32,995 nucleotides of DNA from an uncultured Clostridia bacterium. Lineage in GTDB: Bacteria > Bacillota > Clostridia > Oscillospirales > Ruminococcaceae. The position numbers were made by a program, and so were the translations under genes. The stretch spans positions 1-32,995 of the forward strand of contig CANRZX010000004.1 of assembly GCA_947644575.1 (NCBI GenBank). Direction: 5' to 3'. The notes under the pieces were generated by a model, which ran no database searches, was not told where the DNA came from, and was given only the letters and a program-made list of their open reading frames with translations. Of this stretch, positions 5,447-29,850 are shown in pieces (the stretch's first letter is position 1; each line of letters starts with the position of its first letter).

Positions 5447-5853
5447 TAAAGTAAGTGCTGAATAAATCGGAGTGTACATCGGCCGCGGTTGGAACGCGCG
5501 GCCCATGCTTTCCCCGCGAGAATATGCGGGGTCGCGAAGCGGCGAGCAAATTTTGTGTCAGAGAAAACAAAATACGCAGGGGCAACGCCTGCCGGCCCAA
5601 AATCACGGCCAGTATTCCGCCTGCGGCGGACACGCCGTGCTTTGTGCATTGGCGAGTATTTTTGTAATCATAGCTGCGTTGCAGCTATGATTGCGCATCT
5701 GCCCACTGCGTGGGCGGGCGCTATTGATTCAAAGGCCGTGGGCGCACAGCGCTTACATGGCCAATTTTACAGCTTTGCAGCGCAAAGCTGTAAAATCTGA
5801 CGGAACAATTTTCCGCCGATGCGTGCGCGGCGATTTAGTCAGTGCTTACTAAA
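5447..5853. mobile_element. MITE-like element A: 19-nt imperfect TIRs (5451-5469 / 5831-5849), 4-bp TSD TAAA (5447-5450 / 5850-5853), hairpin-packed interior
   Basis: Left GTAAGTGCTGAATAAATCG, right end reverse complement GTAAGCACTGACTAAATCG (16/19); hairpins at 5481-5503, 5512-5531, 5668-5690 (10-bp stem), 5701-5715, 5764-5796 (15-bp perfect stem); no convincing ORF. Confidence 0.82.
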
Positions 5854-6012
5854 GAAGCAAATCATACCGCCGTCGAGAAATATGTGGATAAAGCAATCCC
5901 TCTTTCCCGTATCCCCGTATCGACTGGGATTTATGGGAAGCCTCATGGGACTTCAAAAAACATCCGCTGATTTAGAAGCCGGTTAAAAATGCTTTCTGAT
6001 TGCGCCGCTCGG

Positions 6013-6978
6013 TTATGCCGACGTCTCCTGATACGCACAGAGCGCCGCGCCGATCAGCCCGATTTTCTGCGGATCCAGCTTGGAAACGGTGATGTTATCG
6101 AGCAGCGCGAGGTTATTGGGAGGCAGCCAGCCGGTCAGGCCGTCAATGATCCCCTGCAGCAGCCATGGATCGCGAAAAACACCGCCGCCGCAGACGATTG
6201 CCTGCGGATCCATAAAATTGATAATATCCTGCACCATGGAAAGCTGCGCTTTCATCATCAGTTCCGCCACGCGGATGGCGAGCGCGTCGCCCTCGCGCGC
6301 CGCCTGAATGATTGTGGAGGAAACCATGCGTCCCTCCCGGTCAAGCTGCGCCAGAACGGAATCCGGGTACTGTTCCATCAGTGCCCGCGCGTGGCGGATC
6401 ATCCCGCCGCCGGAGGCATAGGCTTCAATGCAGCCCACACGCCCGCATTCGCACGGGACGTCAATATTGGCGACGATATGCCCCACTTCCCCCGCGTTGT
6501 TTTGATGCCCGCGGATCAGCCGGCCGTCGCTGACAAGCCCGGCGGCGATGCCGGTACCGACGTTCAGATAAACGAAATCGCGGAACCTCCGCCCCACACC
6601 GAACCGAATTTCCGCCAATGTAGCGCAGTGCACGTCGTTGTCCGCAATGACGGGGATTTGAAACTGCTCCGAAATTTCCCGCCCCAGCGGATAGGGCGTC
6701 AGGATCGGCGTGGCCATGGAAAACACCCATTCCGCGCGGCGGTGGTCCACCTGCCCTACCAGCCCAAGGCCGATCGCGTCCGGCCGGGGAATGGCTCCGC
6801 TCTCCACCAGCTCCGCCCAGTAGGCCGCAACCGCGCGCTTTACGGCGGCGATCGCGATCTCCTGAGACCCGCGCTGCGATGGATACCGGCGCTCGTGGGT
6901 TATCGTCCCGTCCAACCGGACAAGGCCGATGAGTATTTTGGTTCCGCCGACGTCTACTCCCATTACCGTATCCATCAT
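6013..6978 (-). CDS. ROK family sugar kinase
   Basis: 321 aa; MGVDVGGTKILIGLV N-terminal phosphate motif; GTGIAAGLVSDGRLIRG; zinc motif GHIVANIDVPCECGRVGCIE. Confidence 0.93.
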   Translation of the reverse strand: MMDTVMGVDVGGTKILIGLVRLDGTITHERRYPSQRGSQEIAIAAVKRAVAAYWAELVESGAIPRPDAIGLGLVGQVDHRRAEWVFSMATPILTPYPLGREISEQFQIPVIADNDVHCATLAEIRFGVGRRFRDFVYLNVGTGIAAGLVSDGRLIRGHQNNAGEVGHIVANIDVPCECGRVGCIEAYASGGGMIRHARALMEQYPDSVLAQLDREGRMVSSTIIQAAREGDALAIRVAELMMKAQLSMVQDIINFMDPQAIVCGGGVFRDPWLLQGIIDGLTGWLPPNNLALLDNITVSKLDPQKIGLIGAALCAYQETSA

Positions 6979-7322
6979 AAGCTTCCTCCGGTTACAAACG
7001 GTGTTGCGAAAAAACGAAGGGGTGCCGCGCAGACGTCAAGGCGCCCCGTTTTCCGGTTTCTTCATCCTGTTCTCAACGCTTCTCATTATAGCCCGGGCAA
7101 TACAGCGCGGGCAAGAGCTTCTAATAATAATTGAGAAAGCTGCAACGATATGCAAAACGCGCCGTGTTCTTCCGGGCATCCTCCAAGAATGATTGTGGAT
7201 GCGCGCAGCGGGCATATGCTATAGTAGAAGCAGATGGAATCCGCTTCGGTTTTTTGGCGGATTCGGTTTTCTGCCGCGATCCCAAACGCAAATTCGGGCC
7301 CTTAGAGAAAGGACGGAGAACA

Positions 7323-8726
7323 ATGGCTGTAAAAGAACGCGCGATCCATCTGGATTATTTTGACCCGGCCGTAGGCAAGGTGCCTAACCCCGGGATGGGC
7401 GTACAGGGCTATGTCTACAGCGACCATATGCGCTTTGGCTACACATGGGAGGAGATTCAGCCCAGTGTGCCGCACGAAATGACGCCGCTGGATCGGGAGA
7501 GCCTCGAACGCATGGCCGCCTCGCCCCACTGCGACAACCTCTATTATCGCTGCGAATGGCGCGATATCCAGAAGGAAAAGGGCAAGCTTTCTCTGCCCAA
7601 GGAATTTGAGTGGATGCTGGAGGCGTGCGAAAAATACAATAAGACATGGTCGTTCCGGATCATGTCCAGCTCGGTAACGTCTGTTTACAGGGACAGTGTC
7701 CCTGAATTCATCAAGGATCAGGTGAAGATGATCCCCTACTGGCGTACCATCGGCGTACAGGAGTGGTACCCGAAATATTTCCCGGAATACTCCCCGGAAT
7801 TTCTCAAATACTGGGACGAGCTGAACTGCCTTTTGGGCGCGCGGTTTGACAGCGACCCGCGCCTTGAATTCGCGGATGTATCCGGCTATGGCTTCTGGGG
7901 CGAGGCGCACCATTACAGCCTGCAAAGCCCCGATCAAAAGGAAGAGATCAACTGGGAGCCCGAGAACGTGGAAGAGGTTACGGAATTTTTGATGGAGAGC
8001 CATCTGAAGGCTTTCCCCACCACGCCCGCGTGCATGAACCTGCATTACACGGAGTACGGCTTTGCCGGACGCGTTCTCAATCAGAATGGCGTGTGGCTGC
8101 GGCGCGACAGCTTTCAGGCGCACATGAACACCGAGGAATACCGGTGGATTCACCGCGGCGCGAAGAAGGGCGCGATGATCTGGGAGCCGATTCGCGCGCA
8201 CATCACGCGCACCGCACCGCTGCTGTTCACCCCGTCCCAGATGGTGCAGCATTGTCTGGATTACGGCGCGAACTATTTTGGCGTGTCGTTTACCCCATGG
8301 GATTTTGTCATGAGCACACACAATTATCAGGATCTGATGGACCAAATGGATGCGCATGTCGGCTACCGCCTGCGTCCCGCAATGGCATGGCGCCGGGAAA
8401 ACGCGGACAAATCGCAGGATCTTGTCCTGCAGCTGCTGAACGACGGGTGCGGCGCGGTTCCCGGCGCGCTGCGGCTGAAGGCGCGCTTCCCGGACGGCTC
8501 GACAGCGGAAAAAGAGCTTCCCGTGGGAGCTCCCTTCCAAGGCGAGGAAAACCTGTTCAACCTTCCGCTTCCCGAACGGTATTGGGGCGCGTCGGAGCGC
8601 GAGGTCATCCGAGTCTCGGCGAGCCTGAAAATGCGCGGAAAAGAGAAACCGATTCGCTGGGCCGTTCGTCAGGAACTGGACAATCCCTTTGAAATCGTTC
8701 TCCCGTTGCGGGCATTTGTGGATTAA
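7323..8726 (+). CDS. Putative glycoside-hydrolase-like TIM-barrel protein, related to DUF4832 family
   Basis: Start moved from ORF-track 7131 to ATG 7323 (upstream GAAAGGACGGAG); shares NPGMG, YYRCEWRDIQKEKGKL, RFDSDPRLEFADVSGYGFWGE signature positions with the protein at 17618-18940. Confidence 0.7.
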   Translation: MAVKERAIHLDYFDPAVGKVPNPGMGVQGYVYSDHMRFGYTWEEIQPSVPHEMTPLDRESLERMAASPHCDNLYYRCEWRDIQKEKGKLSLPKEFEWMLEACEKYNKTWSFRIMSSSVTSVYRDSVPEFIKDQVKMIPYWRTIGVQEWYPKYFPEYSPEFLKYWDELNCLLGARFDSDPRLEFADVSGYGFWGEAHHYSLQSPDQKEEINWEPENVEEVTEFLMESHLKAFPTTPACMNLHYTEYGFAGRVLNQNGVWLRRDSFQAHMNTEEYRWIHRGAKKGAMIWEPIRAHITRTAPLLFTPSQMVQHCLDYGANYFGVSFTPWDFVMSTHNYQDLMDQMDAHVGYRLRPAMAWRRENADKSQDLVLQLLNDGCGAVPGALRLKARFPDGSTAEKELPVGAPFQGEENLFNLPLPERYWGASEREVIRVSASLKMRGKEKPIRWAVRQELDNPFEIVLPLRAFVD

Positions 8727-8791
8727 CGGGCCGGAAAATCCGGAAAAGCGGACGGCTGCGCCGCATCGCCGGCGGTCTGAAGCAGAATATC

Positions 8792-8838
8792 AAAAAGGCG
8801 AACAGGGCGCCAAAAGGGCTGTCCGGTTCGCCTTTTCC
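8792..8838. terminator. Bidirectional rho-independent terminator between convergent genes
   Basis: AAAAAGGCGAAC...GTTCGCCTTTT inverted repeat between convergent 7323-8726(+) and 8930-9778(-). Confidence 0.8.
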
Positions 8839-8929
8839 ATTTGCGCAACGCAAAGCCGCAGGTTTTTGAGGCAATCGGCTATGTGTTCCGCGGCCTGCGG
8901 GGAAGCGGTGCCGGCTCGGTGCCCCGCAG

Positions 8930-9778
8930 CTATGCCCTTCCGCCGCAGCCGCAGACGCGGATGCGGCTGAACACCAGTTCCTTTACCGTGGCGCGCCCCG
9001 CACGCCCATAAAGCTTCGGGTCAATCGCCTCTGGGCTTTCCTCCAGCGTCCGGCGCACCGCAAGGGTATACGCGGCGCGCAGCTCCGTGGCGAAATTCAC
9101 CTTGCAGATTCCCCGGGTGACACATTCCCGGATGGCCCGCTCCTCTAAGCCGGACGCACCGTGCAGCACCAGCGGTACGTGCAGCCGCTGCCGGATGCGG
9201 CCGACCAGTTCGACATTGAGTACCGGCGGAGCGGCATAGACGCCGTGCGCCGTGCCAACGCCCACGGCAAGGCTGGAAACCCCTGTTTCCCGTTCAAAGC
9301 GCTCGGCTTCATCCGGGTCGGTATAGCCGGCATCCGCGCACACAAGATCCTCTTCCTTGCCGCCGACGCGGCCCACCTCCCCCTCCACAGGGACGCCGTT
9401 CGCGGCGCACATTCGCACCACTTCGCGCGTCAGCGCAATATTCTGCTCCAGCGGCAGCGCGCTTTTGTCAATCATCACACTGGTATAGCCCGCGCGTAGA
9501 GCCTGCGCGCACAGCTCAAAGCTGTTCCCATGATCCAGATGCATTGCCACCGGCACGTCAGCGCGCTCCGCAAGCGCCCGCACGCTGCCCATGTACAGCT
9601 GCGGGTCCGCGTACCGCAGCGTAGAAGGCGTTGTCTGCAGAATTACCGGCGCGCGCGCTTCCTGCGCGGCCTGAACGACGGCCTGCGCCATCTCCATGTT
9701 TTCCACATTGAACGCGCCGACGGCATAACCGCCCGCCTGCGCGGCGCGGAGCATTTCATCTGTAGCTACAAAAGGCAT
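8930..9778 (-). CDS. Class II fructose/tagatose-bisphosphate aldolase (GatY/KbaY/Fba-like)
   Basis: MPFVATDEMLRAAQAGGYAVGAFNVENMEMAQAVVQAA; MHLDHGNSFE; LVLHGASGL; RBS AAAGGAGG before ATG at 9778. Confidence 0.93.
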   Translation of the reverse strand: MPFVATDEMLRAAQAGGYAVGAFNVENMEMAQAVVQAAQEARAPVILQTTPSTLRYADPQLYMGSVRALAERADVPVAMHLDHGNSFELCAQALRAGYTSVMIDKSALPLEQNIALTREVVRMCAANGVPVEGEVGRVGGKEEDLVCADAGYTDPDEAERFERETGVSSLAVGVGTAHGVYAAPPVLNVELVGRIRQRLHVPLVLHGASGLEERAIRECVTRGICKVNFATELRAAYTLAVRRTLEESPEAIDPKLYGRAGRATVKELVFSRIRVCGCGGRA

Positions 9779-9821
9779 GGGGGCCTCCTTTGGCTCTGTT
9801 TGGCCGGTTCCCTCCGGTAGT

Positions 9822-11222
9822 TCAGGCGCGATCCACAACATTTTGGATCCAGCGCCCCTTTTTGATCAGAAGCATGCCCAGACCGGTTTTCAGAATTTCC
9901 GTACACTGACAGAAGCCATAAATCCACAGGATGCCAAGCCCGGTAAAATGGACAAGGCCGCCGGCGGGCACGACACATGCCAGCCAAATAAACACCGTGT
10001 CAAAAATCAAGGTCAGGCTGGCGTTGCCGCCCGTGTGGAGCACACCGGAGACGACTGTCAGGTAAGAGGTGAACGGCAGAATCAGCGCGCTGATGAGAAT
10101 AAAGGAAGACGCGAGTTCCCGCACCTCGCCGGTTGTGTTGTAGATCAGCGGGAAATACCGCCCCGCCAGCGCGTAAAGCAGCGAAACCACAAGGCTTGAC
10201 GCAAAGCACAGACCGATGAATTTCCGGTAAACGGCGAGGATTTTCCCCGGATCCTCCGAGCGTCCCATCATATGTCCGATGACAATCCGCGCCGTGTTGC
10301 CGACGGCGGTTGCCGCAACAATAATCAGGCTGGAAAGCGTGCTGACAATACTGTTCGCGCTGACGACATGCAGCCCCCGGACGGAATAGCACTGCGTCTG
10401 CGCGGCGACGCCCATGGACCAAAGCAGTTGGTTGAGCGCGAACGGCGCGCTTTTTTTCACAATGCGCAAGGCGAGCCAGCCGGGAATATGCAACGAGCGA
10501 TACGCGCCCCGGATAAAGGGAACGCCGCGCGCATTGAGATGCGTCCAGCCCGCCACACCGGCCAATTCAATGAACCGCGCAATCAGCGTTGCGATGGCGG
10601 CCCCATAGCAGCCCATAGCGGGAATCCCCCAAAAGCCGAAGATCAGCACATAATTCAGGGCCAGGCTTACCATCATGGACAGGACGCACGAAATCATGGG
10701 CACCTTTGTTTGCCCAAGCTCCCGCAGCGTGGAGGAATAGACGTTGATGAGCGCGTAAGGCGGCACGCCGGCCAGCATAATCCACAAATAGCCCATCCCG
10801 TAGAAGAGCGACGCCTCGGCGTCCGCGGCAAGACCCTCGCCGTTCAGATAGCTTTGAATCAGCAGCCTGCCCCAGATGCCCAGCAGCAGAATTGTCGCTG
10901 CGCTCAGAAGAAAGCTTGTGATCAGCTTGAAGCGGAAGGTGAACCGGATGCCCTCATCGTCGCCCTTTCCGCTGAACTGCGCGGTGAAAACGCCGATTCC
11001 GGCAAAAATTCCCGAGATGCAGGAATAGAATACAAACATCAGCTGATTGACCACCGCGACGCCGTTCATCTGAACGGTGCTGACACGGCCGACCATGATG
11101 TTGTTCAGCAGCCCGATCAGGTTATAGATGCCGCCTTGCAGCATCATGGGCAGCGCGATGCGGGATGCTTTCGTGTAAAAGGATTTCTCCCCGACGTATT
11201 CATGGATCCTGCTCATAAGCAC
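9822..11222 (-). CDS. MATE family efflux transporter
   Basis: 466 aa, 12 TM-like; ALPMMLQGGIYNLIGLLNNIMVGRVSTVQMNGVAVVNQLMFV. Confidence 0.92.
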   Translation of the reverse strand: MLMSRIHEYVGEKSFYTKASRIALPMMLQGGIYNLIGLLNNIMVGRVSTVQMNGVAVVNQLMFVFYSCISGIFAGIGVFTAQFSGKGDDEGIRFTFRFKLITSFLLSAATILLLGIWGRLLIQSYLNGEGLAADAEASLFYGMGYLWIMLAGVPPYALINVYSSTLRELGQTKVPMISCVLSMMVSLALNYVLIFGFWGIPAMGCYGAAIATLIARFIELAGVAGWTHLNARGVPFIRGAYRSLHIPGWLALRIVKKSAPFALNQLLWSMGVAAQTQCYSVRGLHVVSANSIVSTLSSLIIVAATAVGNTARIVIGHMMGRSEDPGKILAVYRKFIGLCFASSLVVSLLYALAGRYFPLIYNTTGEVRELASSFILISALILPFTSYLTVVSGVLHTGGNASLTLIFDTVFIWLACVVPAGGLVHFTGLGILWIYGFCQCTEILKTGLGMLLIKKGRWIQNVVDRA

Positions 11223-11249
11223 TCCCGTTTTCTGCGTCCGGCAAAAAGG

Positions 11250-12137
11250 TCAGCGCCGGTCCTGCTTCTGTTTCTTGCGGTATTCGCTTGGGCTTGTTTC
11301 CGTAAGTTGGCGGAATGCGCGGTTGAAATTGGCGGCGTTGTTGAAGCCGGAACGCAGCGCTACCTCCAAAATGGAAAGCTTCTCGTCCTTCAGCAGCTCG
11401 ATGGCCAGACGGATGCGCTTGCGGGTGATGTACTGAACCGGGGACTCGGACATCTGCTTTTTGAAGAACGTGGAAAAATAGTAGCGGTTCATGGCGGCAA
11501 CCTGGGAAAGCTGGTCGATCGTAATGTCGTGCGTCAGGTGTTCCTCAATGTAATCCAGCACTCTCGTAAAGGAATCCTGCAGGACGGGGGCCTCTCGCCG
11601 AGACGGGTTCAGGCTGGGTACGGTTTTTTGATAATAGCACGCGATTTCGGAAAGGATCAGAAAAAGGTACGCCTTCACCATAAGCGGGTAGCCTTCCTTT
11701 TTCTCGTACAGCGCCGTCTGGATTTTCCCGAACAGGCCGCTCACCTCTTTGGCGCAGGCCTCCGTATGCGGAATCCTGCACGAGCGGTTTGTAAAATAAA
11801 ACGGCTCGAGGTACCGCAGGTTGAAATCCTCCATTTCCAGAGAGGAGATAAAGGAGGGCACAAAATTGAGCGATAAATACTTCAGTTTGGCCGACGCGTT
11901 TTCGGAAAAAATATTGTGCTGCTCCATACTGTTGAAAATGAAGCAGTCGCCCTTTTCAAAGGGCTGCTCCGCGTCGCCGCTTTTGAAAAAGCCCTCTCCG
12001 TCCACAAGCAGCGTAATCTCCATTGTGGAATGAAAATGGGCCTGTGTTTCCGTGTAATCACCCGACGCGGCAAACTCCATAAATTCCAAGCAGGTATCGT
12101 GTCCGTGCTTGATCAGTTCGACCTGATAAAACAGCAT
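11250..12137 (-). CDS. AraC family transcriptional regulator with N-terminal cupin sensor domain
   Basis: C-terminal YIEEHLTHDITIDQLSQVAAMNRYYFSTFFKKQMSESPVQYITRKRIRLAIELLKDEKLSILEVALRSGFNNAANFNRAFRQLTETSPSEYRKK. Confidence 0.95.
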   Translation of the reverse strand: MLFYQVELIKHGHDTCLEFMEFAASGDYTETQAHFHSTMEITLLVDGEGFFKSGDAEQPFEKGDCFIFNSMEQHNIFSENASAKLKYLSLNFVPSFISSLEMEDFNLRYLEPFYFTNRSCRIPHTEACAKEVSGLFGKIQTALYEKKEGYPLMVKAYLFLILSEIACYYQKTVPSLNPSRREAPVLQDSFTRVLDYIEEHLTHDITIDQLSQVAAMNRYYFSTFFKKQMSESPVQYITRKRIRLAIELLKDEKLSILEVALRSGFNNAANFNRAFRQLTETSPSEYRKKQKQDRR

Positions 12138-12204
12138 ACGGCTCTCCCTCCGGTCAAATTAGCTTGATTATATCGTGCCGCGATTTCAAAAATCAAGGGA
12201 ATGC

Positions 12205-12231
12205 AACAATAATTGTGAAGATAACAATAAT
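12205..12231. promoter_or_regulatory. Candidate AraC-type binding site: direct repeat AACAATAAT with 18-bp period
   Basis: AACAATAAT at 12205-12213 and 12223-12231 in the AraC / ROK-like divergent intergenic region. Confidence 0.45.
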
Positions 12232-12403
12232 CCATGAAGCCGCCAAAAAGAGACGAAAAAAATGAAGATTTTCTTTGTAGAAAAAGCGCGTACAGGCAGC
12301 GTATACTGAAAAATAAGGTGAATTTACATCTTGAATGGGCAGGCGCGCCGCTATTTTGCGAGGTTCGGGCAGGCGCTACCTGCAAAAGCTGGGAGGAGAT
12401 GCC

Positions 12404-13414
12404 ATGAGCTGCACAGAGCCGTACAGGGCGCAGACGGCAATGGCGATTGATATCCGCGAGGAGCGGATCAAAGTGGGGATTGTCTCCCGGGAGGGGAGCG
12501 TGCTGTTCAGCCGGCGCTACCCGTGGGAAACCTCCTCCGTCGCCGGCTTCCTCGACACATTGATGCTTGATATCGCGGACTTTCAAAGCCGGACAGACGG
12601 CCAGTGGAGTTATGACCGAGTGGGTGTGAGCATCGGCGGCTGGATTGACCGCGAGACGGGCACGTGGCTTTATACCGCGAAGGTGCATGGCTTTGCGGAT
12701 CCCGTCCCGTTGCGGTACCTAATTGAGCGCGCCACGGGCCGCCCTGTTTTTATTGACAATGACATCCACGTCAGCACGCTTGCGGAAAACCGCTTTGGCA
12801 TCGGCAAAATCTATCCGAACTTTACGTATTATCACATCGGCAGGGGCATCGCGGTCGGTGTTGTCAGTGAGGGCCGGCTGATCCGCGGCGCGGCGAATTA
12901 CGCGGGGGAATATGGAGGATACTTATACGATTTCGGTGGGCAGGACAGCATCTGCCGTCTGGAGGAATTCGCGTCCGGGCGCGGCATGGTTCGCTGGGCG
13001 CGCAGTCTGTTCGGGCAGTATCCCAATTCCGCGCTGTGTCAGGCGGACCGGGAGGGCATGCTTTCCCCGGCGAAAATTTTTGAATGCGGCGCGGTGAATG
13101 ATCCGCTGGCCGCGCACATTGTCCACCATGTGCAGCGCGGCATCGGCCTGTCGGTGGTGAGCTTGTTGAGCTTCACAAACAGCGAGGCAATCGCGTTCGG
13201 CGGAGAGCTTGCCGGGATGAACGGGCTTTTGCCCGCGCTGACGGATTTCATTGAGGAGTACTGTGCGCCCCCGACCAGACGTTCCCTGAACTACATTGGC
13301 AGCGGGCGGCTCAACGTCCAGGAAGAGGGAATGATCGGCGCGGCATGGCTGACGTGGGAGGAGCCCGGCCCGCAGCCCGCAGGCGGCCCGTCCCCGGCCG
13401 GGCGGGCAACGTGA
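12404..13414 (+). CDS. ROK-fold protein, degenerate (probable pseudokinase / sugar sensor)
   Basis: Aligns with the ROK protein at 6013-6978 (NDIHVSTLAENRFGIGK; GRGIAVGVVSEGRLIRG; EFASGRGMVRWARSLFGQYPNSALCQADREGML) but lacks DxGGT and CxCGxxGCxE. Start set at ATG 12404 (GGGAGGAGATGCC upstream). Confidence 0.88.
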   Translation: MSCTEPYRAQTAMAIDIREERIKVGIVSREGSVLFSRRYPWETSSVAGFLDTLMLDIADFQSRTDGQWSYDRVGVSIGGWIDRETGTWLYTAKVHGFADPVPLRYLIERATGRPVFIDNDIHVSTLAENRFGIGKIYPNFTYYHIGRGIAVGVVSEGRLIRGAANYAGEYGGYLYDFGGQDSICRLEEFASGRGMVRWARSLFGQYPNSALCQADREGMLSPAKIFECGAVNDPLAAHIVHHVQRGIGLSVVSLLSFTNSEAIAFGGELAGMNGLLPALTDFIEEYCAPPTRRSLNYIGSGRLNVQEEGMIGAAWLTWEEPGPQPAGGPSPAGRAT

Positions 13415-13487
13415 GGGGCGGTGGGCCTGTGCCGTGCGGGCGCCATCCATACAGGCCATAAAGCTGTCTGTCAAAAGGAGAACCCTT

Positions 13488-14627
13488 ATGGAAGAAAAAG
13501 ATCGTCTGCTGCAGCGCATTCTGTCATTGACGACAAGCGCCCCCTGGTCGGAAAATCTCCGCTTGAATCGGGAGAGCATCCGGACGCTTTGCGCAAAGGG
13601 GGCGCTGGGCGGCATCCGGCGAATGTATCTGACGGGCGGAGGCACCTCGCTGTACGCGGCGGAGGTGGGGCGAAGCTATATGGAGCGGATTGCGGGCATC
13701 CCCGCACAGGCGGTTCCCTGCTACAGCTTCAGCTATTATATTCCGGAGGAACTGCTGGGGCCGGATGTCTGCCTGCTTGCCATTTCGCAGACAGGGACGG
13801 CCCGGTCCGTGGAAAAATGCGTTCGTGCGGCACAGCGGTCGGGAGCGCTTGACATCGCCGTCTCCGGCTCCACCGACGCGCCGGTTCCGGCGGCGGCGCG
13901 CCGCCTGATCCTGACGGATGCCAAAACGGAGGGGCCGTCCGCAAAGAGCACCTCCTATGTTCAGGCGCTCACCGCGGTTTATCTGCTGGCGGTCGCGATC
14001 GGGCGGGCAAACGGGCGCTTGACGGAACAGCAGGCCGCGTGGTGGGACGCACAGCTGGAGGAAGCCGTTCAAAAATCGGCGCAGCTGGCCGGGCTCACGG
14101 AGCAGATGTACCGACTCGCTGCACAATACAAAGACGCGCCGATCCACCACTGCCTGGCCGTGGGGCCGAATGTCGGGACAGTGGAGGAGGGCGCGCTGAA
14201 AATCATCGAAATGGCGTGGGTGCCCGCAGAAGGCCGGGAAATGGAGGACTTCCTGCACGGAAGGTACCGTGAGGCGGATGAGACAACGCCCCTTCTGCTG
14301 ATTGCCCCTAAGGGACCATCCAAGGAGAAGCTGATGGATACGCTCGGTTCGGCAAAGCGGATTCATGCGCCGACGATCGTTCTGACGGACGACCCGGACC
14401 CCGCCATCGCGCGGCTGGCAACCCATGTGGTAAAAATGCCGGGTGGCGTGGATGAATTCCTCACACCGATGTTCTATATCACACCGCTTTGGCTCTATGC
14501 GCATCGGCTGGGAATCCTGCGCGGCGCGGACCCCGCGGGCAACCGCCACGGATTTATCCCCACGGGATATGAATATCGCGCGCACTATGACGAAAACGGA
14601 ATGCCGCTTGTGCCGGCTGCTCCATAA
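13488..14627 (+). CDS. SIS domain protein (sugar isomerase/deaminase, GlmS-isomerase/AgaS-like)
   Basis: MYLTGGGTSLYAAEVGRSYMERI; LLAISQTGTARSVEKCVRAA; GAKSTSY-type motif; RBS AAAAGGAG before ATG 13488. Confidence 0.9.
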   Translation: MEEKDRLLQRILSLTTSAPWSENLRLNRESIRTLCAKGALGGIRRMYLTGGGTSLYAAEVGRSYMERIAGIPAQAVPCYSFSYYIPEELLGPDVCLLAISQTGTARSVEKCVRAAQRSGALDIAVSGSTDAPVPAAARRLILTDAKTEGPSAKSTSYVQALTAVYLLAVAIGRANGRLTEQQAAWWDAQLEEAVQKSAQLAGLTEQMYRLAAQYKDAPIHHCLAVGPNVGTVEEGALKIIEMAWVPAEGREMEDFLHGRYREADETTPLLLIAPKGPSKEKLMDTLGSAKRIHAPTIVLTDDPDPAIARLATHVVKMPGGVDEFLTPMFYITPLWLYAHRLGILRGADPAGNRHGFIPTGYEYRAHYDENGMPLVPAAP

Positions 14628-14789
14628 GCGCCTGTTTGGGAGTTCGGGGCAGGCCGGACGGGAGGAATGTTCCCGCTCTGCTGAGGACAAACGCGCGGAA
14701 AACCTTTGTGGGCTCCGGGCGTTGGGGCGGCAAAGGGCGACGCAACGGCCCGCAGGCGGCGCGCGGGAAAACGGGAGAATGCGCCCTGC

Positions 14790-15800
14790 TCAGACGGATG
14801 CGCGCACGACCTTGGCGATCGGCAGATAAAGTTTGCGCGGCGGCAGCGTGCAGCCGCGCAGCCGCTCGTCCAAAAGCTCGGCCGCTACCTGGCCGATTGC
14901 CTCCATCGGTACGGCATACGTCGTCAGGGGCGGGCTGGAAAATTGGGAGAGCTGGATGTTGCTCAAGCCGATTACCGCCATTTGCTCCGGCACGCGGACG
15001 CCGATGGAATACAGCGCGCTGAGCGCAGCCATCGCCATCAGGTCGCTGGCCGCGCAGATGGCCGTGGGGGGATCGGGCTGCGCCATCAACGCCTTGATTA
15101 GGTCGATGCAGAGAATTTCATCCCACTTGCAGTCCAGCACCCACTCGGAACGGATGGGCAGGCCCGCGACGTGCATCGCCGCGACAAAGCCGAGATAGCG
15201 CCGGCTCACCGCGCCCCTCGGCCCAAAGATGGTCCCGCCCAGAAAGGCGATTTTCTGATGGCCCTTCCGGATCAGGTGATTGGCAAGGCGCATGCCTGCC
15301 TCAAAATGGTCGTAGCCGACGATGTCAATATCGGGGTTTCTCGTATCAATTCCCACACACGCGGGGATGCGCGCGCGCAGGCTGCTGTAGAGCGCCGGGT
15401 CAAGCTGCTCCATCAAAATCAGCCCTGTCGGGGGCGCTTCCAGAATCGCGCGGAGGGTCTCCGGTTCCTGCATTTCAAAATATGTTTTCAAAAACGCGAC
15501 GGAATAGCCTTTTTCAAGCAGGCGCGCTTCCAGCCCGGCATAGATGCTGATGAAATAGGGATCCCGGTATTTGTCCTTTGTTACGCTCAGGATACAGCCG
15601 ATGCGCTTACCCGCCGGCGCGGCCGCCGCCCTGCCCGAATGGGCGGACGCCTTCTGTTTATAGCCCGTCTGCGCGGCGGCGTTCCATACTTTGTTTTTCG
15701 TTTCTTCCCGTATCTTATAGGTAGTATCGTTGTTGAGCACGCGGGAGACAGTGGCGGCGGATACGCCGGCCAAAGCGGCAACCTCCCGGATAGACGCCAT
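14790..15800 (-). CDS. LacI family transcriptional regulator
   Basis: MASIREVAALAGVSAATVSRVLNNDTTYKIREETKNKVWNAAAQTGYK HTH; periplasmic-binding-like C-terminal domain. Confidence 0.96.
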   Translation of the reverse strand: MASIREVAALAGVSAATVSRVLNNDTTYKIREETKNKVWNAAAQTGYKQKASAHSGRAAAAPAGKRIGCILSVTKDKYRDPYFISIYAGLEARLLEKGYSVAFLKTYFEMQEPETLRAILEAPPTGLILMEQLDPALYSSLRARIPACVGIDTRNPDIDIVGYDHFEAGMRLANHLIRKGHQKIAFLGGTIFGPRGAVSRRYLGFVAAMHVAGLPIRSEWVLDCKWDEILCIDLIKALMAQPDPPTAICAASDLMAMAALSALYSIGVRVPEQMAVIGLSNIQLSQFSSPPLTTYAVPMEAIGQVAAELLDERLRGCTLPPRKLYLPIAKVVRASV

Positions 15801-15830
15801 GAAAATCCCTCCTTTTTAAGATAATTTTAG

Positions 15831-15852
15831 CGTAACACATTACGAAACAAAA
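15831..15852. promoter_or_regulatory. Candidate LacI-family operator O1 (palindrome CGTAA-CACA-TTACG)
   Basis: CGTAACACATTACGAAACAAAA, repeated with 3 mismatches at 16047-16068; overlaps promoter region of the LacI gene. Confidence 0.72.
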
Positions 15853-15987
15853 GTAAAGCGTTTTTTCTTTGAAAAGATTCTTTTTTCTTTGCGGCGCATG
15901 GGTTTGTGCGAAACAGCCCACACCGAATGCGGCGTAGGCATGGGTAAATTTCCGAATTATCGTAGATAAACTTGTGCGTTTTGCCAA

Positions 15988-16015
15988 TTGCATTCTTTTG
16001 CGTTAGCTTTATAAT
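15988..16015 (+). promoter_or_regulatory. Predicted sigma-A promoter for the oxidoreductase operon
   Basis: TTGCAT (15988-15993), 16-bp spacer, TATAAT (16010-16015). Confidence 0.6.
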
Positions 16016-16046
16016 GAAAATATCATTTAATAGACGCAAATTATAA

Positions 16047-16068
16047 CGCAACATTTTACGAAACAAAA
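16047..16068. promoter_or_regulatory. Candidate LacI-family operator O2
   Basis: CGCAACATTTTACGAAACAAAA, second copy of the O1 sequence, downstream of predicted -10 and upstream of the GTG start. Confidence 0.68.
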
Positions 16069-16101
16069 TAGGCCCCTGTGATGAGCGAGGAGGAATGTGC
16101 T

Positions 16102-17358
16102 GTGAAAATTGTTTTGATTGGCGCCGGACAGCGAGGACGGATCTATGCGGATTACATAGCGGAAAAGGACGGCATACAGGTTGTGGCGGTTGTGGAGCCG
16201 AACGACGCGCGCCGGAACGCGGCCGCCGCGCAGCTGGGCATCGCCGGGGATCGGTGCTTTTCATCCGTCGAGGCGCTGTGGGCCCAGGGAAAAATTGCGG
16301 ACGCGGCAATTATCGCTTCGATGGACCGGGATCATTACGCGCAGGTGATGAAGGCGCTGGAGCTGGGCTACCATATTCTTCTGGAAAAGCCCATTTCCCC
16401 CGACCCCGCTGAATGCATGGACATCCTGCGCTTTGCCAAGAAGAGAAAGCTGCATGTGGTAGTCTGCCACGTCTTGCGCTACACGCCGTTTTTCTCCCGA
16501 ATCAAGGAGATTCTCGATTCCGGGCGCATCGGCCGCCTTGTGTCGGTCCGGCTGGACGAAAATATCGGGAATTTCCATTTTGCGCACAGCTTTGTGCGCG
16601 GCAACTGGCGCAGGGCGGAGCTGGCCAGTCCCAGCATCATGCAGAAGTCCTGCCACGACATGGATTTGCTGAACTGGCTGGTGGGCGCGCAGGCAAAGCG
16701 CGTTTCCTCCTGCGGCTCGCTGCATTATTTCAAGGAGAGCAACGCGCCCGCCGGCAGCACGGACCGCTGCGCGACCTGCCCCGCCGAGAGCGCCTGCCGC
16801 TTCAGCGCCTATAAAAGCTATCTGCCCGCTGCGGGGGAGTGGCCCGCAGCCGTCATCACTCCCTCGGCGGACCCCGAGGCGTTGCGCAAGGAGCTCGAGC
16901 ACAGTCCCTATGGTCGCTGCGTGTACCGCTGCGACAACGACGTGTGCGATCAGCAGGTGGTCGCGGTGGAATACGAGGGTGGCCAGACGGCAAGTTTCAA
17001 CATGTCTGCCTTTACCAACCGGATGAACCGCACGATCCATGTGATGTGTGAGGACGGGGAAATCTTCGGCGACGACGGCCTGCACGAGATTGAGGTGATT
17101 TCCTTTGCATCCAATCAGGTGGAAGGCTATCAATCCGAAAAGATCTATGTGCCGGAGCCGCGCAGCGGTCATGGCGGGGGCGACGCGGGCGTCGCGGATG
17201 ATTTCATCAGTCTTTTGCAGGACGACCGGCCGGCCCGCTCCGAAATCGGCATGTCTGTGGACAGCCACGTGATGGCCGCGGCGGCGGAGCTGAGCCGGGC
17301 GACCGGACGGACCATTGATTTAGACGCCTACCGCTGCGAGCTGCGGAAGGAAGAATGA
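16102..17358 (+). CDS. Gfo/Idh/MocA family oxidoreductase
   Basis: VKIVLIGAGQRGRIYADYIAEKDGIQVVAVVEPN (Rossmann), GYHILLEKPISPD; GTG start with GCGAGGAGG upstream; start placed at 16102 rather than ORF-track 16078. Confidence 0.93.
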   Translation: MKIVLIGAGQRGRIYADYIAEKDGIQVVAVVEPNDARRNAAAAQLGIAGDRCFSSVEALWAQGKIADAAIIASMDRDHYAQVMKALELGYHILLEKPISPDPAECMDILRFAKKRKLHVVVCHVLRYTPFFSRIKEILDSGRIGRLVSVRLDENIGNFHFAHSFVRGNWRRAELASPSIMQKSCHDMDLLNWLVGAQAKRVSSCGSLHYFKESNAPAGSTDRCATCPAESACRFSAYKSYLPAAGEWPAAVITPSADPEALRKELEHSPYGRCVYRCDNDVCDQQVVAVEYEGGQTASFNMSAFTNRMNRTIHVMCEDGEIFGDDGLHEIEVISFASNQVEGYQSEKIYVPEPRSGHGGGDAGVADDFISLLQDDRPARSEIGMSVDSHVMAAAAELSRATGRTIDLDAYRCELRKEE

Positions 17359-17564
17359 AGCGGCTTGCCTGCGCGGCCTGCGGAGCGCCGATGACAAACG
17401 ACGAAATCGCTTTTTGCCTGCACCTGCACGGGGGCGCGGCGGCCCGCTTCCTCTGCGTGAAGTGCATGGCGGCGGACTTTGGATGCCCGCCGGAGCATCT
17501 GCAAAAAAAAATCGGGCTTTTAAGAAACAGCGGCTGCAGATATTTTGCTGAAACCTATGTGTGA
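17355..17564 (+). CDS. Small CxxC...CxxC zinc-ribbon-like protein of unknown function
   Basis: 69 aa MKRLACAACGAPMTNDEIAFCLHLHGGAAARFLCVKCMAADFGC...; ATG overlaps oxidoreductase stop (ATGA). Confidence 0.72.
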   Translation: MKRLACAACGAPMTNDEIAFCLHLHGGAAARFLCVKCMAADFGCPPEHLQKKIGLLRNSGCRYFAETYV

Positions 17565-17617
17565 CGGCGCCGCGCGGACAACCGCCGCACGCAGGATTAT
17601 TTTGGAGGAGGAACGAC

Positions 17618-18940
17618 ATGCAGACGGTGATCCCAAAAACAATCCCGGATCTTCTGACCAATCCCGGCATCGGCTTTATCGCGGCCCCGCATCTGATGGG
17701 GAACCCCGCCGAGCTGCGGGATAACCGGGGCGTTCCGGTGGAAGAATACCGCTTCCTGCAGAGTACAAAAACGTGGAACCACCCGGATTCCGGCCTGTAT
17801 TACTGCGGGGGCCGGTGGAAGGAGCTGGAGCCGGGGCAGGGTAAATACCGCTGGGATATTCTGGACGAGGGTCTGGAAAAGGCCCGCCGGATGGGCTGCA
17901 CCTCCATTGTGCGCGTCGCGCCCTATGCGCTGCGCCCAGAGGAAGATGTTCCCTCGTGGATGCGCGAGAAATGGCCGGAGGAGCCGGACTATCCGTTCTG
18001 GCGCGTCGATCCCAATACGACGGATTACGCCGACCGCTGGGCGGAATTTGTCCGCGCATTCGCGGCGCGCTTTGACGGGGATGAGCGCATTTCCTCTGTG
18101 GATCTCGCCATCACGGGCGCGTGGGGCGAGGGCGGAGGCTCGGAGTTTATGGATCCGGAAAAGTTAGAGCAGATCATTTCCGCGTATCTCGACGGCTTCA
18201 CCAAAACGCCGATCCAGGCGCTGCTGCACGACCCTGTCAGTGTGGCGTGCATCCGCAGGCACCGGGCGAAGGTAGGCTTCCGAGTAGACTGCCTCGGCGA
18301 TATGGGCGGCTTCCATCCCGGGCGCTGGAGCCATATGGAGGACTACTATCCGCAGAATGTAGTCAATTTCCATATGCAGGACGCGTGGAAGGAAGCCCCG
18401 GTTGTGTTTGAGGCCTGCTGGCACACCAACGACTGGTATCTGCAGGGCTGGGACATCGATTATATCATCGACGAAAGCCTGAAATGGCACATTTCCTCCT
18501 ATAACGCGAAGGGCACGACGATCCCGCAGGCGTGGCAGAAAAGCGTGGAGCGCTGGGTACGGAAAATGGGCTATCGGTACGAGATCCACTCCTGCGCTGT
18601 CTCCGAGCAGGCGCAGCCGGGCGGCGCGCTGGATTTCGAGATGCTCGTCAGCAATACGGGCGTCGCCCCGTGCTACCATAATTATGCCCCCGTGCTCCGC
18701 TTTGCCGGGGAGAACGCTTCGTTTGATCTGCCCATCGATACGGATATCCGCCGGTGGATGCCGGACGCGGATCTTCGCGTCGCTCAAAGGCTGACGATCC
18801 CGGAAAGCGCGCCCAAGGGGACTTATATGGTGAAGCTGGGTTTCCCGGTACCCGGGTATCTCGACAAGACGCTCCGGCTTGCCATCGAAGGGCGGGACGC
18901 GGAGGGCTTTTATCCGCTGTGTCCGGTGCGGATCGGATAA
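17618..18940 (+). CDS. DUF4832-family glycosidase-like protein
   Basis: NPGIGF, YYCGGRWKELEPGQGKYRWDILDEGLEKAR, RFDGDERISSVDLAITGAWGEGG, C-terminal beta-sandwich region; RBS TTGGAGGAGGAA before ATG 17618. Confidence 0.78.
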   Translation: MQTVIPKTIPDLLTNPGIGFIAAPHLMGNPAELRDNRGVPVEEYRFLQSTKTWNHPDSGLYYCGGRWKELEPGQGKYRWDILDEGLEKARRMGCTSIVRVAPYALRPEEDVPSWMREKWPEEPDYPFWRVDPNTTDYADRWAEFVRAFAARFDGDERISSVDLAITGAWGEGGGSEFMDPEKLEQIISAYLDGFTKTPIQALLHDPVSVACIRRHRAKVGFRVDCLGDMGGFHPGRWSHMEDYYPQNVVNFHMQDAWKEAPVVFEACWHTNDWYLQGWDIDYIIDESLKWHISSYNAKGTTIPQAWQKSVERWVRKMGYRYEIHSCAVSEQAQPGGALDFEMLVSNTGVAPCYHNYAPVLRFAGENASFDLPIDTDIRRWMPDADLRVAQRLTIPESAPKGTYMVKLGFPVPGYLDKTLRLAIEGRDAEGFYPLCPVRIG

Positions 18941-18957
18941 GCGCCTGAACGGGCTCT

Positions 18958-19238
18958 GAGAGTAATCACTGATTCAATCGGTAGGTCAGACCGGCGAGCA
19001 GATTTCCCGCCTGTTGAAGGTGAAAAATCGCAGGAATACTTGGTGCCCCCGCAAGGGGGATGCCAAAATTCTAAAGCGGCACAGCCGCTAAGAATTTTGC
19101 AATATTTTAAGGTTTTGAGGCAAAAACAGGCGGTCGTCGGCCACATAAGGAACGTGCGGCCGACATTTCCCCGCGGGAATATGCGGGGTCAAAGATGCCG
19201 CAGAGATGTGCCTGACGATTTATTCAGTGATTACGAGA
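18958..19238. mobile_element. MITE-like element B: 19-nt TIRs (18962-18980 / 19216-19234), TSD GAGA (18958-18961 / 19235-19238), hairpin-packed interior
   Basis: Left GTAATCACTGATTCAATCG, right reverse complement GTAATCACTGAATAAATCG (17/19); hairpins 19046-19059, 19064-19099, 19136-19164, 19169-19188; TIRs and CCCCGC-hairpin module shared with element A. Confidence 0.85.
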
Positions 19239-19253
19239 AAGGAGAGATGCGGA

Positions 19254-20546
19254 ATGACGGAATTTGCACGTCTTACAGCCCAATTTGAGCTTTCCGGTTT
19301 TCCGGAGGGGCTGGATTCCCTGTATGACCAATACGCGGTCGGTTATCAGCCGCATGCGCTGATGCGCCGGGAACTGATCGGCGAAATGTGTGCGCGGTTT
19401 GAGGCGGGCGCGCAGGCCGAGCAGCGGCTGCTGGCCGCGCTGGACGAGATCGGGGCCAATCCGGAGCTGCTGAAGCTTTCAAGTTTTCTGGTGCACGATA
19501 TGTGCGCGGCACGGCACCGGCTTGATCTGGACGATTACCACGTCATGGAGCCCAAAAAGGGTGTGGAGCATGCCGAGCTGTATTCCTGCCTGCTGCTGTT
19601 CGCTTGCATCGAGCCGTCCATGCGGCGTTTGGAAAAGCTGGGAATGCCGCCGGAATACTATGAAAAAACGCCGTTTTCCCCCGCGAAGCGGCAGCTGGAA
19701 AAACTGCGCAGCACAGGAGACGGCCGTGTAAGCGATTTCCCGTGGGATATGAACTTCTACACCTGCAGTCTGTTCCCGCTCGGTCGCTTTAACTTCATCC
19801 CCTTCCGCGTGGACGACCCGATCCGGGTGTTCCGCAAAGGGAAGGAAACCGTCGCCTTCTTCACCGAGCCGCACCGCATCCGCCGCGACGGGATGATCGA
19901 CGGCGTAAACGGCCAGAAGGATCCGGAGGCGTTTGACATCCGGTATGAGGAAAAGGACGGTATTGTCACCGGCTGGCCGATCTGCCCCGCCGGAACGGTG
20001 GAGCCGCAGCCGCGTAGCATCGCTCTGGCGGAATGGGAAATGGTGCTCCAAAAAGGGGATATCCTGATGGGCTTTCACATCCCGGGCGGGCCGGGGTATG
20101 ACCCGCAGCACCTGCGTGACGACTGCCTGATGTGCTACGAATTCTTCAAAAAATGGTTTCCGGAGATTGAGATCAAGGGCTTTGGCAGCGAGAGCTGGCT
20201 GTACGACCCCCATCTCGCGATGCTGTTGGAGGGGCGCGGCAACATTGCCAAAATGCAGTGCCAGATGTATATTTATCCGATCGAGAGCGGCGACGGGCAG
20301 GTGTGGCGCGAGCTGTTCCACGGCAGACGCTCGCCGGACGAGGTCGAACCGAAGAGCCGTCTGCAGAAAGCGGCGGCGGAATATATGGAACAGGGCGGAC
20401 GCTTCACGCCTTGCAGCATGTTTGTGCTGGCGCAGGATCTGCCCCGCGTAGAGCGCGAGCCGCTTTATGCAGAGGAGAGCGTTTATCGGAGCGTTTGGGA
20501 GCGCATGCGCCAGCCGCTGTCTGCGCAGGAAGGGAACGAAACATGA
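19254..20546 (+). CDS. Acyltransferase-domain (DUF5596-like, GNAT-related) protein
   Basis: 430 aa; MPPEYYEKTPFSPAKRQLEKLRSTGDGRVSDFPWDMNFYTCSLFPLGRFNFIPF...FKKWFPEIEIKGFGSESWLYDPHLAMLL; family recalled from clostridial annotations; RBS AAAGGAGAG. Confidence 0.65.
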   Translation: MTEFARLTAQFELSGFPEGLDSLYDQYAVGYQPHALMRRELIGEMCARFEAGAQAEQRLLAALDEIGANPELLKLSSFLVHDMCAARHRLDLDDYHVMEPKKGVEHAELYSCLLLFACIEPSMRRLEKLGMPPEYYEKTPFSPAKRQLEKLRSTGDGRVSDFPWDMNFYTCSLFPLGRFNFIPFRVDDPIRVFRKGKETVAFFTEPHRIRRDGMIDGVNGQKDPEAFDIRYEEKDGIVTGWPICPAGTVEPQPRSIALAEWEMVLQKGDILMGFHIPGGPGYDPQHLRDDCLMCYEFFKKWFPEIEIKGFGSESWLYDPHLAMLLEGRGNIAKMQCQMYIYPIESGDGQVWRELFHGRRSPDEVEPKSRLQKAAAEYMEQGGRFTPCSMFVLAQDLPRVEREPLYAEESVYRSVWERMRQPLSAQEGNET

Positions 20547-23538: not shown

Positions 23539-23808
23539 GCCCGCGCGGGGCGGCTGCTTTTGGTTGGAGGATCCTTTTGCGCGGCGCGCTCTGGGATCTG
23601 CAAACATAAGGCAATCCCGCACAAAGAACGCCGAACGGCTTTGTACCCATCTTGCTTGCAGATTTCCCGTCCTATTTTACAAAAATTTTCGGCAAGCCAC
23701 AAAGGCTTTCCTGCGGTTTTTGTCTCATCTGACAGAAAATCTGCCGGCGCAATCCGGGCACAATCTTTATGCGGTATTGCCATAAATCACAGAAAATGGA
23801 GGATGAAT

Positions 23809-29694: not shown

Positions 29695-29753
29695 TGGCTC
29701 CCCCTGTTGGGCTCGAACCAACGACCCTGCGGTTAACAGCCGCATGCTCTACC
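29695..29753 (-). tRNA. Partial tRNA-Asn(GTT): 3' 59 nt only (D-loop to CCA), 5' part absent
   Basis: Minus strand GGTAGAGCATGCGGCTGTTAACCGCAGGGTCGTTGGTTCGAGCCCAACAGGGGGAGCCA; anticodon stem-loop TGCGG-CTGTTAA-CCGCA, T-arm GTTGG-TTCGAGC-CCAAC, encoded CCA; no matching TCCCCCT acceptor 5' strand upstream. Confidence 0.88.
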
Positions 29754-29850
29754 ATATAGCACATTGTATACCCAAAATGGAGTCTGCCGGACGCTTTGAC
29801 TGTGTCAGTGGCGTTCTCCATTGTAAAGCATTGGCATAGAGGGCTTTGGT

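Follow-up and report, generated by a model that had tools for sequence, protein, structure and literature searches.

Probable IS5-derived miniature elements with a conserved hairpin core, optional cassettes and changing ends in an uncultured Ruminococcaceae bacterium

Among the systems closest to the repeats described here, IS5 of Escherichia coli is an insertion sequence (IS) of 1195 bp with a DDE transposase, 16-bp inverted repeats and CTAA/CTAG or YTAR targets (PMC11677980, PMC10359306). Porphyromonas gingivalis has IS5-family miniature inverted-repeat transposable elements (MITEs), namely BrickBuilt, MITE239 and MITE464/PgRS; BrickBuilt contains a tandem minisatellite and has target-site duplications (TSDs) of varying length and similar ends around unrelated interiors (PMC4596501). 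The pneumococcal BOX repeat is built as boxA-boxB(n)-boxC, and in Streptococcus suis, which has boxE/boxF ends, two different end sets enclose the same boxB modules (PMC3049150). Here we describe a family of hairpin elements, represented by elements A, B and C in a 32,995-nt stretch from an uncultured, gut-type Clostridia bacterium of the Ruminococcaceae (the window; contig C4 of the 2.73-Mb metagenome-assembled genome (MAG) G000, 94.6% complete). We hold, with a probability of roughly 90%, that A, B and C are non-autonomous transposons (type II MITEs) which IS5-family DDE transposases (NF033581) mobilise in trans, and that they are made of a conserved hairpin core with optional cassettes and changing ends.

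A preliminary description of the window had proposed two copies, A and B, of a hairpin element with 19-nt terminal inverted repeats (TIRs), 4-bp TSDs and interiors without a convincing open reading frame (ORF). All four ends are present where they had been placed (5451-5469, 5831-5849, 18962-18980 and 19216-19234), and a scan of the window allowing at most 3 mismatches gives 4 matches, as opposed to 0.03 expected. The flanking duplications are confirmed as well, and no coding gene could be identified in the interior of A or B. The two copies are thus real, but a third element, C, of the same build and with different ends, had gone unlisted. Likewise, the reading of the interiors as tandem hairpins is correct but incomplete, as they consist of a hairpin core of ~160 bp plus separate, reusable hairpin cassettes. 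The features are as follows.

5447-5450, no strand: left TSD of A, TAAA
5451-5849, + strand: element A, MITE of 399 bp, TIRs GTAAGTGCTGAATAAATCG / GTAAGCACTGACTAAATCG
5476-5533, + strand: cassette M1 at slot P1 of A, two hairpins, about 57 bp
5581-5637, + strand: cassette M3 in a shortened form at slot P4 of A
5664-5797, + strand: cassette M6 at slot P6 of A, four hairpins, 134 bp
5850-5853, no strand: right TSD of A, TAAA
18958-18961, no strand: left TSD of B, GAGA
18962-19234, + strand: element B, MITE of 273 bp, TIRs GTAATCACTGATTCAATCG / GTAATCACTGAATAAATCG
19046-19103, - strand: cassette M4 in the apical loop (slot P5) of B, 57 bp, ends approximate
19134-19190, + strand: cassette M1' at slot P2 of B
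19235-19238, no strand: right TSD of B, GAGA
23606-23609 and, as second copy, 23782-23785, no strand: TSD of C, ATAA
23610-23781, - strand: element C, 172 bp, shared hairpin core with a different IS5-clade TIR, GGCAATCCCGCACAAAG / GGCAATACCGCATAAAG

Hence, A is the combination M1+M3+M6 and B is M4+M1'. The interiors of both fold far more stably than shuffled sequences (z of -10.3 for A and -7.5 for B), while C matches the hidden Markov model of the core with E = 1.7e-13 and has a fold of -85.5 kcal/mol.

The preliminary description had looked to further copies and to empty sites as checks, and both exist. Over the whole host MAG, 162 TIR ends are found with at most 3 mismatches, against 0 for a reversed-pattern control, and about 80 elements of the TIR family are present. 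Paired elements were read in contigs amounting to 1.53 of the 2.73 Mb, where there are 53 inverted pairs. The 4-bp flanks are identical in 27 of these and differ at one base in another 17; random re-pairing of the flanks gives a mean of only 3.1 exact 4-bp matches, with a maximum of 8, and flank matches of 5, 6, 8 or 9 bp occur in none of the 53 pairs. The insertion target has the consensus T-N-R-A (TTGA, TAAA, TTAA, TCAA). With a 1076-bp pairing left out, 52 elements with 19-nt TIRs range in size from 27 to 537 bp, and 4 of 52 intervals (one a known false pair) lie inside long ORFs, compared with about 35 expected at random. The pairing at window positions 6082-6265, within the ROK gene, was rejected as false. 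The smallest members are (near-)perfect palindromes of 27 bp, in which two TIRs are fused and the 4-bp duplications are intact (L161:1711-1737, L081:3105-3131 and L236:6712-6738). Unpaired ends number 93, of which 23 have a contig end no more than 600 bp away, so that the repeats evidently break the assembly.

In G007, a sister species, the orthologous genes that flank B are separated by a short spacer only, and once B and one of its two GAGA copies are taken out, the sequences align again at the ribosome-binding site (AGAAAGGAGA / GAAAAGGAGA). Reciprocally, G007 has a 160-bp element with a CTTG duplication where the orthologous spacer of the host has none. When an empty site for A was looked for, G002, G007 and G008 proved to lack synteny on the downstream side of the lacto-N-biose phosphorylase gene, and the gene order around A is retained in no relative. 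Of ten species of the same genus, nine are without the TIR family and the tenth, G007, has a species-specific TIR variant, GGAAGCTCTGATTAAATCG. The family reaches high copy number in several other genomes. The exact TIR occurs in many Clostridia, foremost in MAG U.11_5 (155 ends), whose elements of ~170 bp have mostly TTAA duplications and are the most uniform copies; it is also present in Ruminococcus HAN024, UBA7147 and RGIG8518. Among the 396 genomes of the order there is one other high-copy carrier, G286, with 83 ends of the TIR variant GGAACCACTGATTAAATCA. Viral and phage collections returned 2 single-end matches without partners, and the core was unmatched in phages.

The mobilising transposase had been placed outside the window, and IS5-family (NF033581) relatives were indeed found elsewhere. 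G286 holds an intact IS of 1216 bp with TIRs GGAACCACTGATTTAATCT / GGAAACACTGAACAAATAG and flanks CTAA/TTAA, whose 303-aa transposase scores 292 bits in the IS5 family NF033581 (cut-off 140). Full-length ISs with matching TIRs are found in G286, G349, G137, G204 and Subdoligranulum variabile; the copies with these ends in other Oscillospirales measure 1.07-1.25 kb, and exact 4-bp TSDs border those of G349 (CTAA/CTAA), G137 (TTAA/TTAA) and S. variabile (ATAA/ATAA). The IS of S. variabile TSDC17.2 is 1068 bp long with its transposase in two pieces. Three records of this strain deposited as plasmids (OY725839, OY725846 and OY725879) are up to 387 kb long and almost unannotated, and may be chromosomal contigs. 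The left TIR lies 147-180 bp upstream of the start codon in all IS copies.

In the host itself, a DUF772 search led to contig C90, where the match stands 208 bp inward from an unpaired TIR. This TIR, GTAAGCACTGAATAAATCT, stands 148 bp before the inferred start codon of a frame-broken transposase fragment (61% identical over 93 aa), which ends where IS3-like sequence starts. At L069:10217-10745, IS3-like sequence with an orfA-like ORF interrupts the host's decayed IS5 transposase copy. G007 has a transposase relic beside GGAAACTCTGAATAGATCG, which bears the CTCTGA variant of G007's own MITEs, and in three genomes the IS ends match the local MITE variant. Furthermore, TIR type tracks transposase clade in a broader set: proteins 52-100% identical to that of G286 go with TIR a, the TIR of the A/B family, and those 46-49% identical to it go with TIR c, GGCAAYACCGCACAA. 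The occurrence of the same TIRs on full-length IS5 relatives, together with decayed local copies that have the local MITE variant, thus points to IS5-derived MITEs.

Other candidate enzymes and autonomous copies were set aside. An intact PF01609 (DDE_Tnp_1) match on host contig C85 looks ISAs1-like, and that contig bears no TIR of the matching type. In U.11_5, TIR pairs 0.7-5 kb apart, considered as autonomous copies, enclose ordinary genes (ylqF, rnhB, phospholipase D-like). IS66, considered for ends that start with GTAA, produces a TSD of 8 bp, which does not fit. Y1 transposases (PF01797) occur in the host genome, where no link between them and the cassettes was found.

As for the internal build, elements of 159-161 bp are one long hairpin, and larger ones are this core plus blocks at fixed places. 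Seven cassettes, each of two or more hairpins, occupy fixed slots and occur in 15 combinations among 46 elements: M1 follows GGAGTGT or GACGG, M2 follows ATTTTT, M3 lies just 5' of the apex, M4 in the apical loop, and M6 and M7 in the 3' arm. M1 has 22 copies within TIR elements and is found almost only there; the copy in A is missing from an otherwise similar module-free core (L037:423-583). Elements of the same kind in G007 have M1-M4. A separate M7 family consists of multi-hairpin elements of ~190 bp with ends TAGTCAGCACACTTG / TAATCGACACACTCG, apparently flanked by TA, of which about 10 copies lie outside the IS5-type MITEs and 2 are nested within them; its loci include L032:15430, L054:14491, L103:7326, L061:1712 and L043:3996.

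It could be argued that the cassettes are not insertions at all, and that a long ancestral element held all of them, the short copies having lost hairpins by precise deletion. Replication slippage is well known to delete palindromes, and the absence of a duplication at any cassette junction agrees with such a loss. However, module-free cores of ~160-172 bp are usual in other genera and families, these cassettes are seen in the host genus only, and M2, M3, M4, M6 and M7 also occur in other contexts in the host genome. U.11_5 has a different hairpin cassette, of ~105 bp, in elements L150:2173-2445 and L186:5163-5440, which suggests that another lineage gained cassettes independently. We therefore regard wholesale loss as unlikely; given that module-free elements are usual in other genera, a gain of cassettes in the host genus is likelier than a loss.

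The core was searched for with a profile of the interior alone, TIRs excluded, at E<1e-3 and with the reversed genome as control. It has 48 matches in the host genome and 0 in the reverse, and half of the matches lie outside paired A/B-type TIR elements (a few of these being truncated members of that family). In the host genome the core is found between AAACTGTCTAAAAA repeats; it also lies between GGCAATACCGCATAAAG repeats with a 4-bp TSD, a set that includes C, between GAAGCGGTATTCATAAG repeats with a 3-bp TSD in 3 of 4 cases, and between GAGCCTGTTTAGAATC repeats with a 3-bp TSD in the sole full-length pair. S. variabile has the core with GGCAACACCGCACAATTC ends and TTAA or TAAG duplications. 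The presence of the core between these other TIR types indicates that it changed ends during evolution. Moreover, since the TIR of C is a second IS5-clade type, two IS5 clades have probably moved the same hairpin chassis within the window.

The likeness of the cores could be due to convergence instead of common descent, or be an artefact of the hairpin model, which is palindromic and rich in A/T. The core is indeed partly of low complexity, with runs of A and T, and any hairpin profile may catch other hairpins. Nevertheless, the reversed genome, which keeps both composition and palindromes, gave no match at all, and non-structural motifs such as GCGCAGGNAATACTTTGTG are common to cores of different TIR sets, as is the steady total length of 160-161 or 172 nt. 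Convergence is thus, in our judgement, quite improbable. Internal loops also lie at similar places across the TIR sets. In 21 cores from all TIR sets, 90% of cells pair, compared with 37-49% when slid; 13 of 19 core pairs show compensatory change, and covariation is 0.507, compared with 0.07-0.13 when slid. A broader proposal is that the ~160-bp hairpin chassis is a real inherited unit which repeatedly took over ends belonging to different transposases (with 4-bp TSDs for two IS5 clades and 3-bp TSDs for further TIR sets), so that it parasitises several transposases per genome, and which in one genus swaps cassettes among fixed slots like a combinatorial array. We put this forward tentatively, at a little short of even odds.

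The least probable account, a very remote one to our mind, treats the elements as repeats with a regulatory or structural role in the host, either terminators of the REP/ERIC type or RNA elements; recombination would have spread them, and the TIRs would be no more than the foot of the hairpin. This account can appeal to very stable, almost always intergenic hairpins and to pairing preserved by compensatory changes, but the exact 4-bp duplications at the TIR ends, far above chance, already largely refute it, and it is further opposed by the empty orthologous sites, by IS5 elements that share these TIRs and have 4-bp TSDs, and by the Rfam covariance models, which matched no family in the window except tRNA elsewhere in it.

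Several points do weigh against the assignment of A, B and C to IS5-type MITEs. Of the 53 pairs, 26 are without an exact TSD (the 17 that are one base off included). In the host MAG, at its 94.6% completeness, no intact transposase of this clade was found, and in U.11_5 none was found in any form. E. coli IS5 is reported to use YTAR (PMC10359306), a stricter target than the T-N-R-A of the host, although YTAR describes that element and does not define the family. Lastly, template-switch correction between the arms could mimic selection on pairing; the internal loops that persist at fixed places argue for selection on geometry instead. Because no intact enzyme is resident, we infer mobilisation from the TIRs and TSDs. 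On that basis, an IS5 transposase would have acted on these particular copies, and the family would seem to be old or idle in the host.

The mechanism that we propose is as follows. An IS5 transposase would bind the ~19-bp TIRs and cut the element out or copy it, and insertion at a staggered 4-bp target (T-N-R-A in the host, TTAA in U.11_5) would leave the 4-bp duplication. The pairing of the ~160-bp core is kept through compensatory changes, with selection on the fold presumably maintaining the core. In the host genus, the core appears to have acquired optional hairpin cassettes at seven fixed slots, and over evolution it would have switched to TIRs of other types. The most likely reason for its upkeep may be that a compact hairpin is tolerated at transcript ends or between operon genes, or that it helps transposition.

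With regard to the surroundings, the neighbours of A on its two sides are a lacto-N-biose phosphorylase gene and a gene for a ROK kinase, and C lies just upstream of a solute-binding protein gene. B is flanked by genes for a DUF4832 protein and a GNAT-type protein, and AAGGAG, the presumed ribosome-binding site of the latter, is directly 3' of its right GAGA (window 18958-19262). B thus stands directly before this presumed site (GAGA|AAGGAG) in a probable operon, and the duplicated GAGA leaves the site intact. A tRNA-like match (model positions 10-63 of 71, 36 bits) lies at 29706-29760 on the minus strand of the window.

MITEs are usually pictured as shrunken copies of one parent IS that kept the ends and lost the middle. 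The reverse is seen here, with a middle that is retained and ends that vary. This raises two questions: what selection on the hairpin favours, and by what route an element without its own enzyme passes from one transposase to another. Gain and exchange of hairpins have left a natural record in the cassettes at their fixed slots. On the practical side, assemblies of Oscillospirales MAGs break up where these elements end, and, judging by their position directly beside ribosome-binding sites within operons, the elements may affect expression.

We found neither the family itself, nor cassettes in fixed slots, nor a hairpin core common to at least five TIR sets described in the literature (ISfinder not being covered). 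Like the P. gingivalis MITEs, the elements are non-coding, their TIRs match full-length IS5-family elements, and their interior is unrelated to the IS, as in a type II MITE; unlike in BrickBuilt, it is the interior hairpin that is preserved and the ends that differ, the TIR is another one, and the TSD is a constant 4 bp. The full-length relatives share with E. coli IS5 the NCBIfam family, a similar length (1.07-1.25 kb), the 4-bp duplication and CTAA and TTAA targets, whereas the TIR sequence differs, the MITE target is looser and the host has no intact copy. Correia/NEMIS and ERIC/RU-1 are likewise palindromic and intergenic, have TIRs at their borders and reach high copy, at lengths of 100-200 bp (PMC2229807, PMC10969869), and Correia elements exist with and without an internal segment; those systems differ in having mostly TA at their termini, a single internal length variant and no described TIR exchange. 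BOX is likewise made of small mobile hairpin repeats with modular interiors, and its repeats insert into one another. However, the modules of BOX are of one or two kinds and vary mainly in how many are present, while the host family has seven unlike cassettes in fixed slots, and what it conserves is a hairpin core over its full length, combined with at least five TIR sets. Taken together, the family is ordinary in class, an IS5 type II MITE, and unusual in build.

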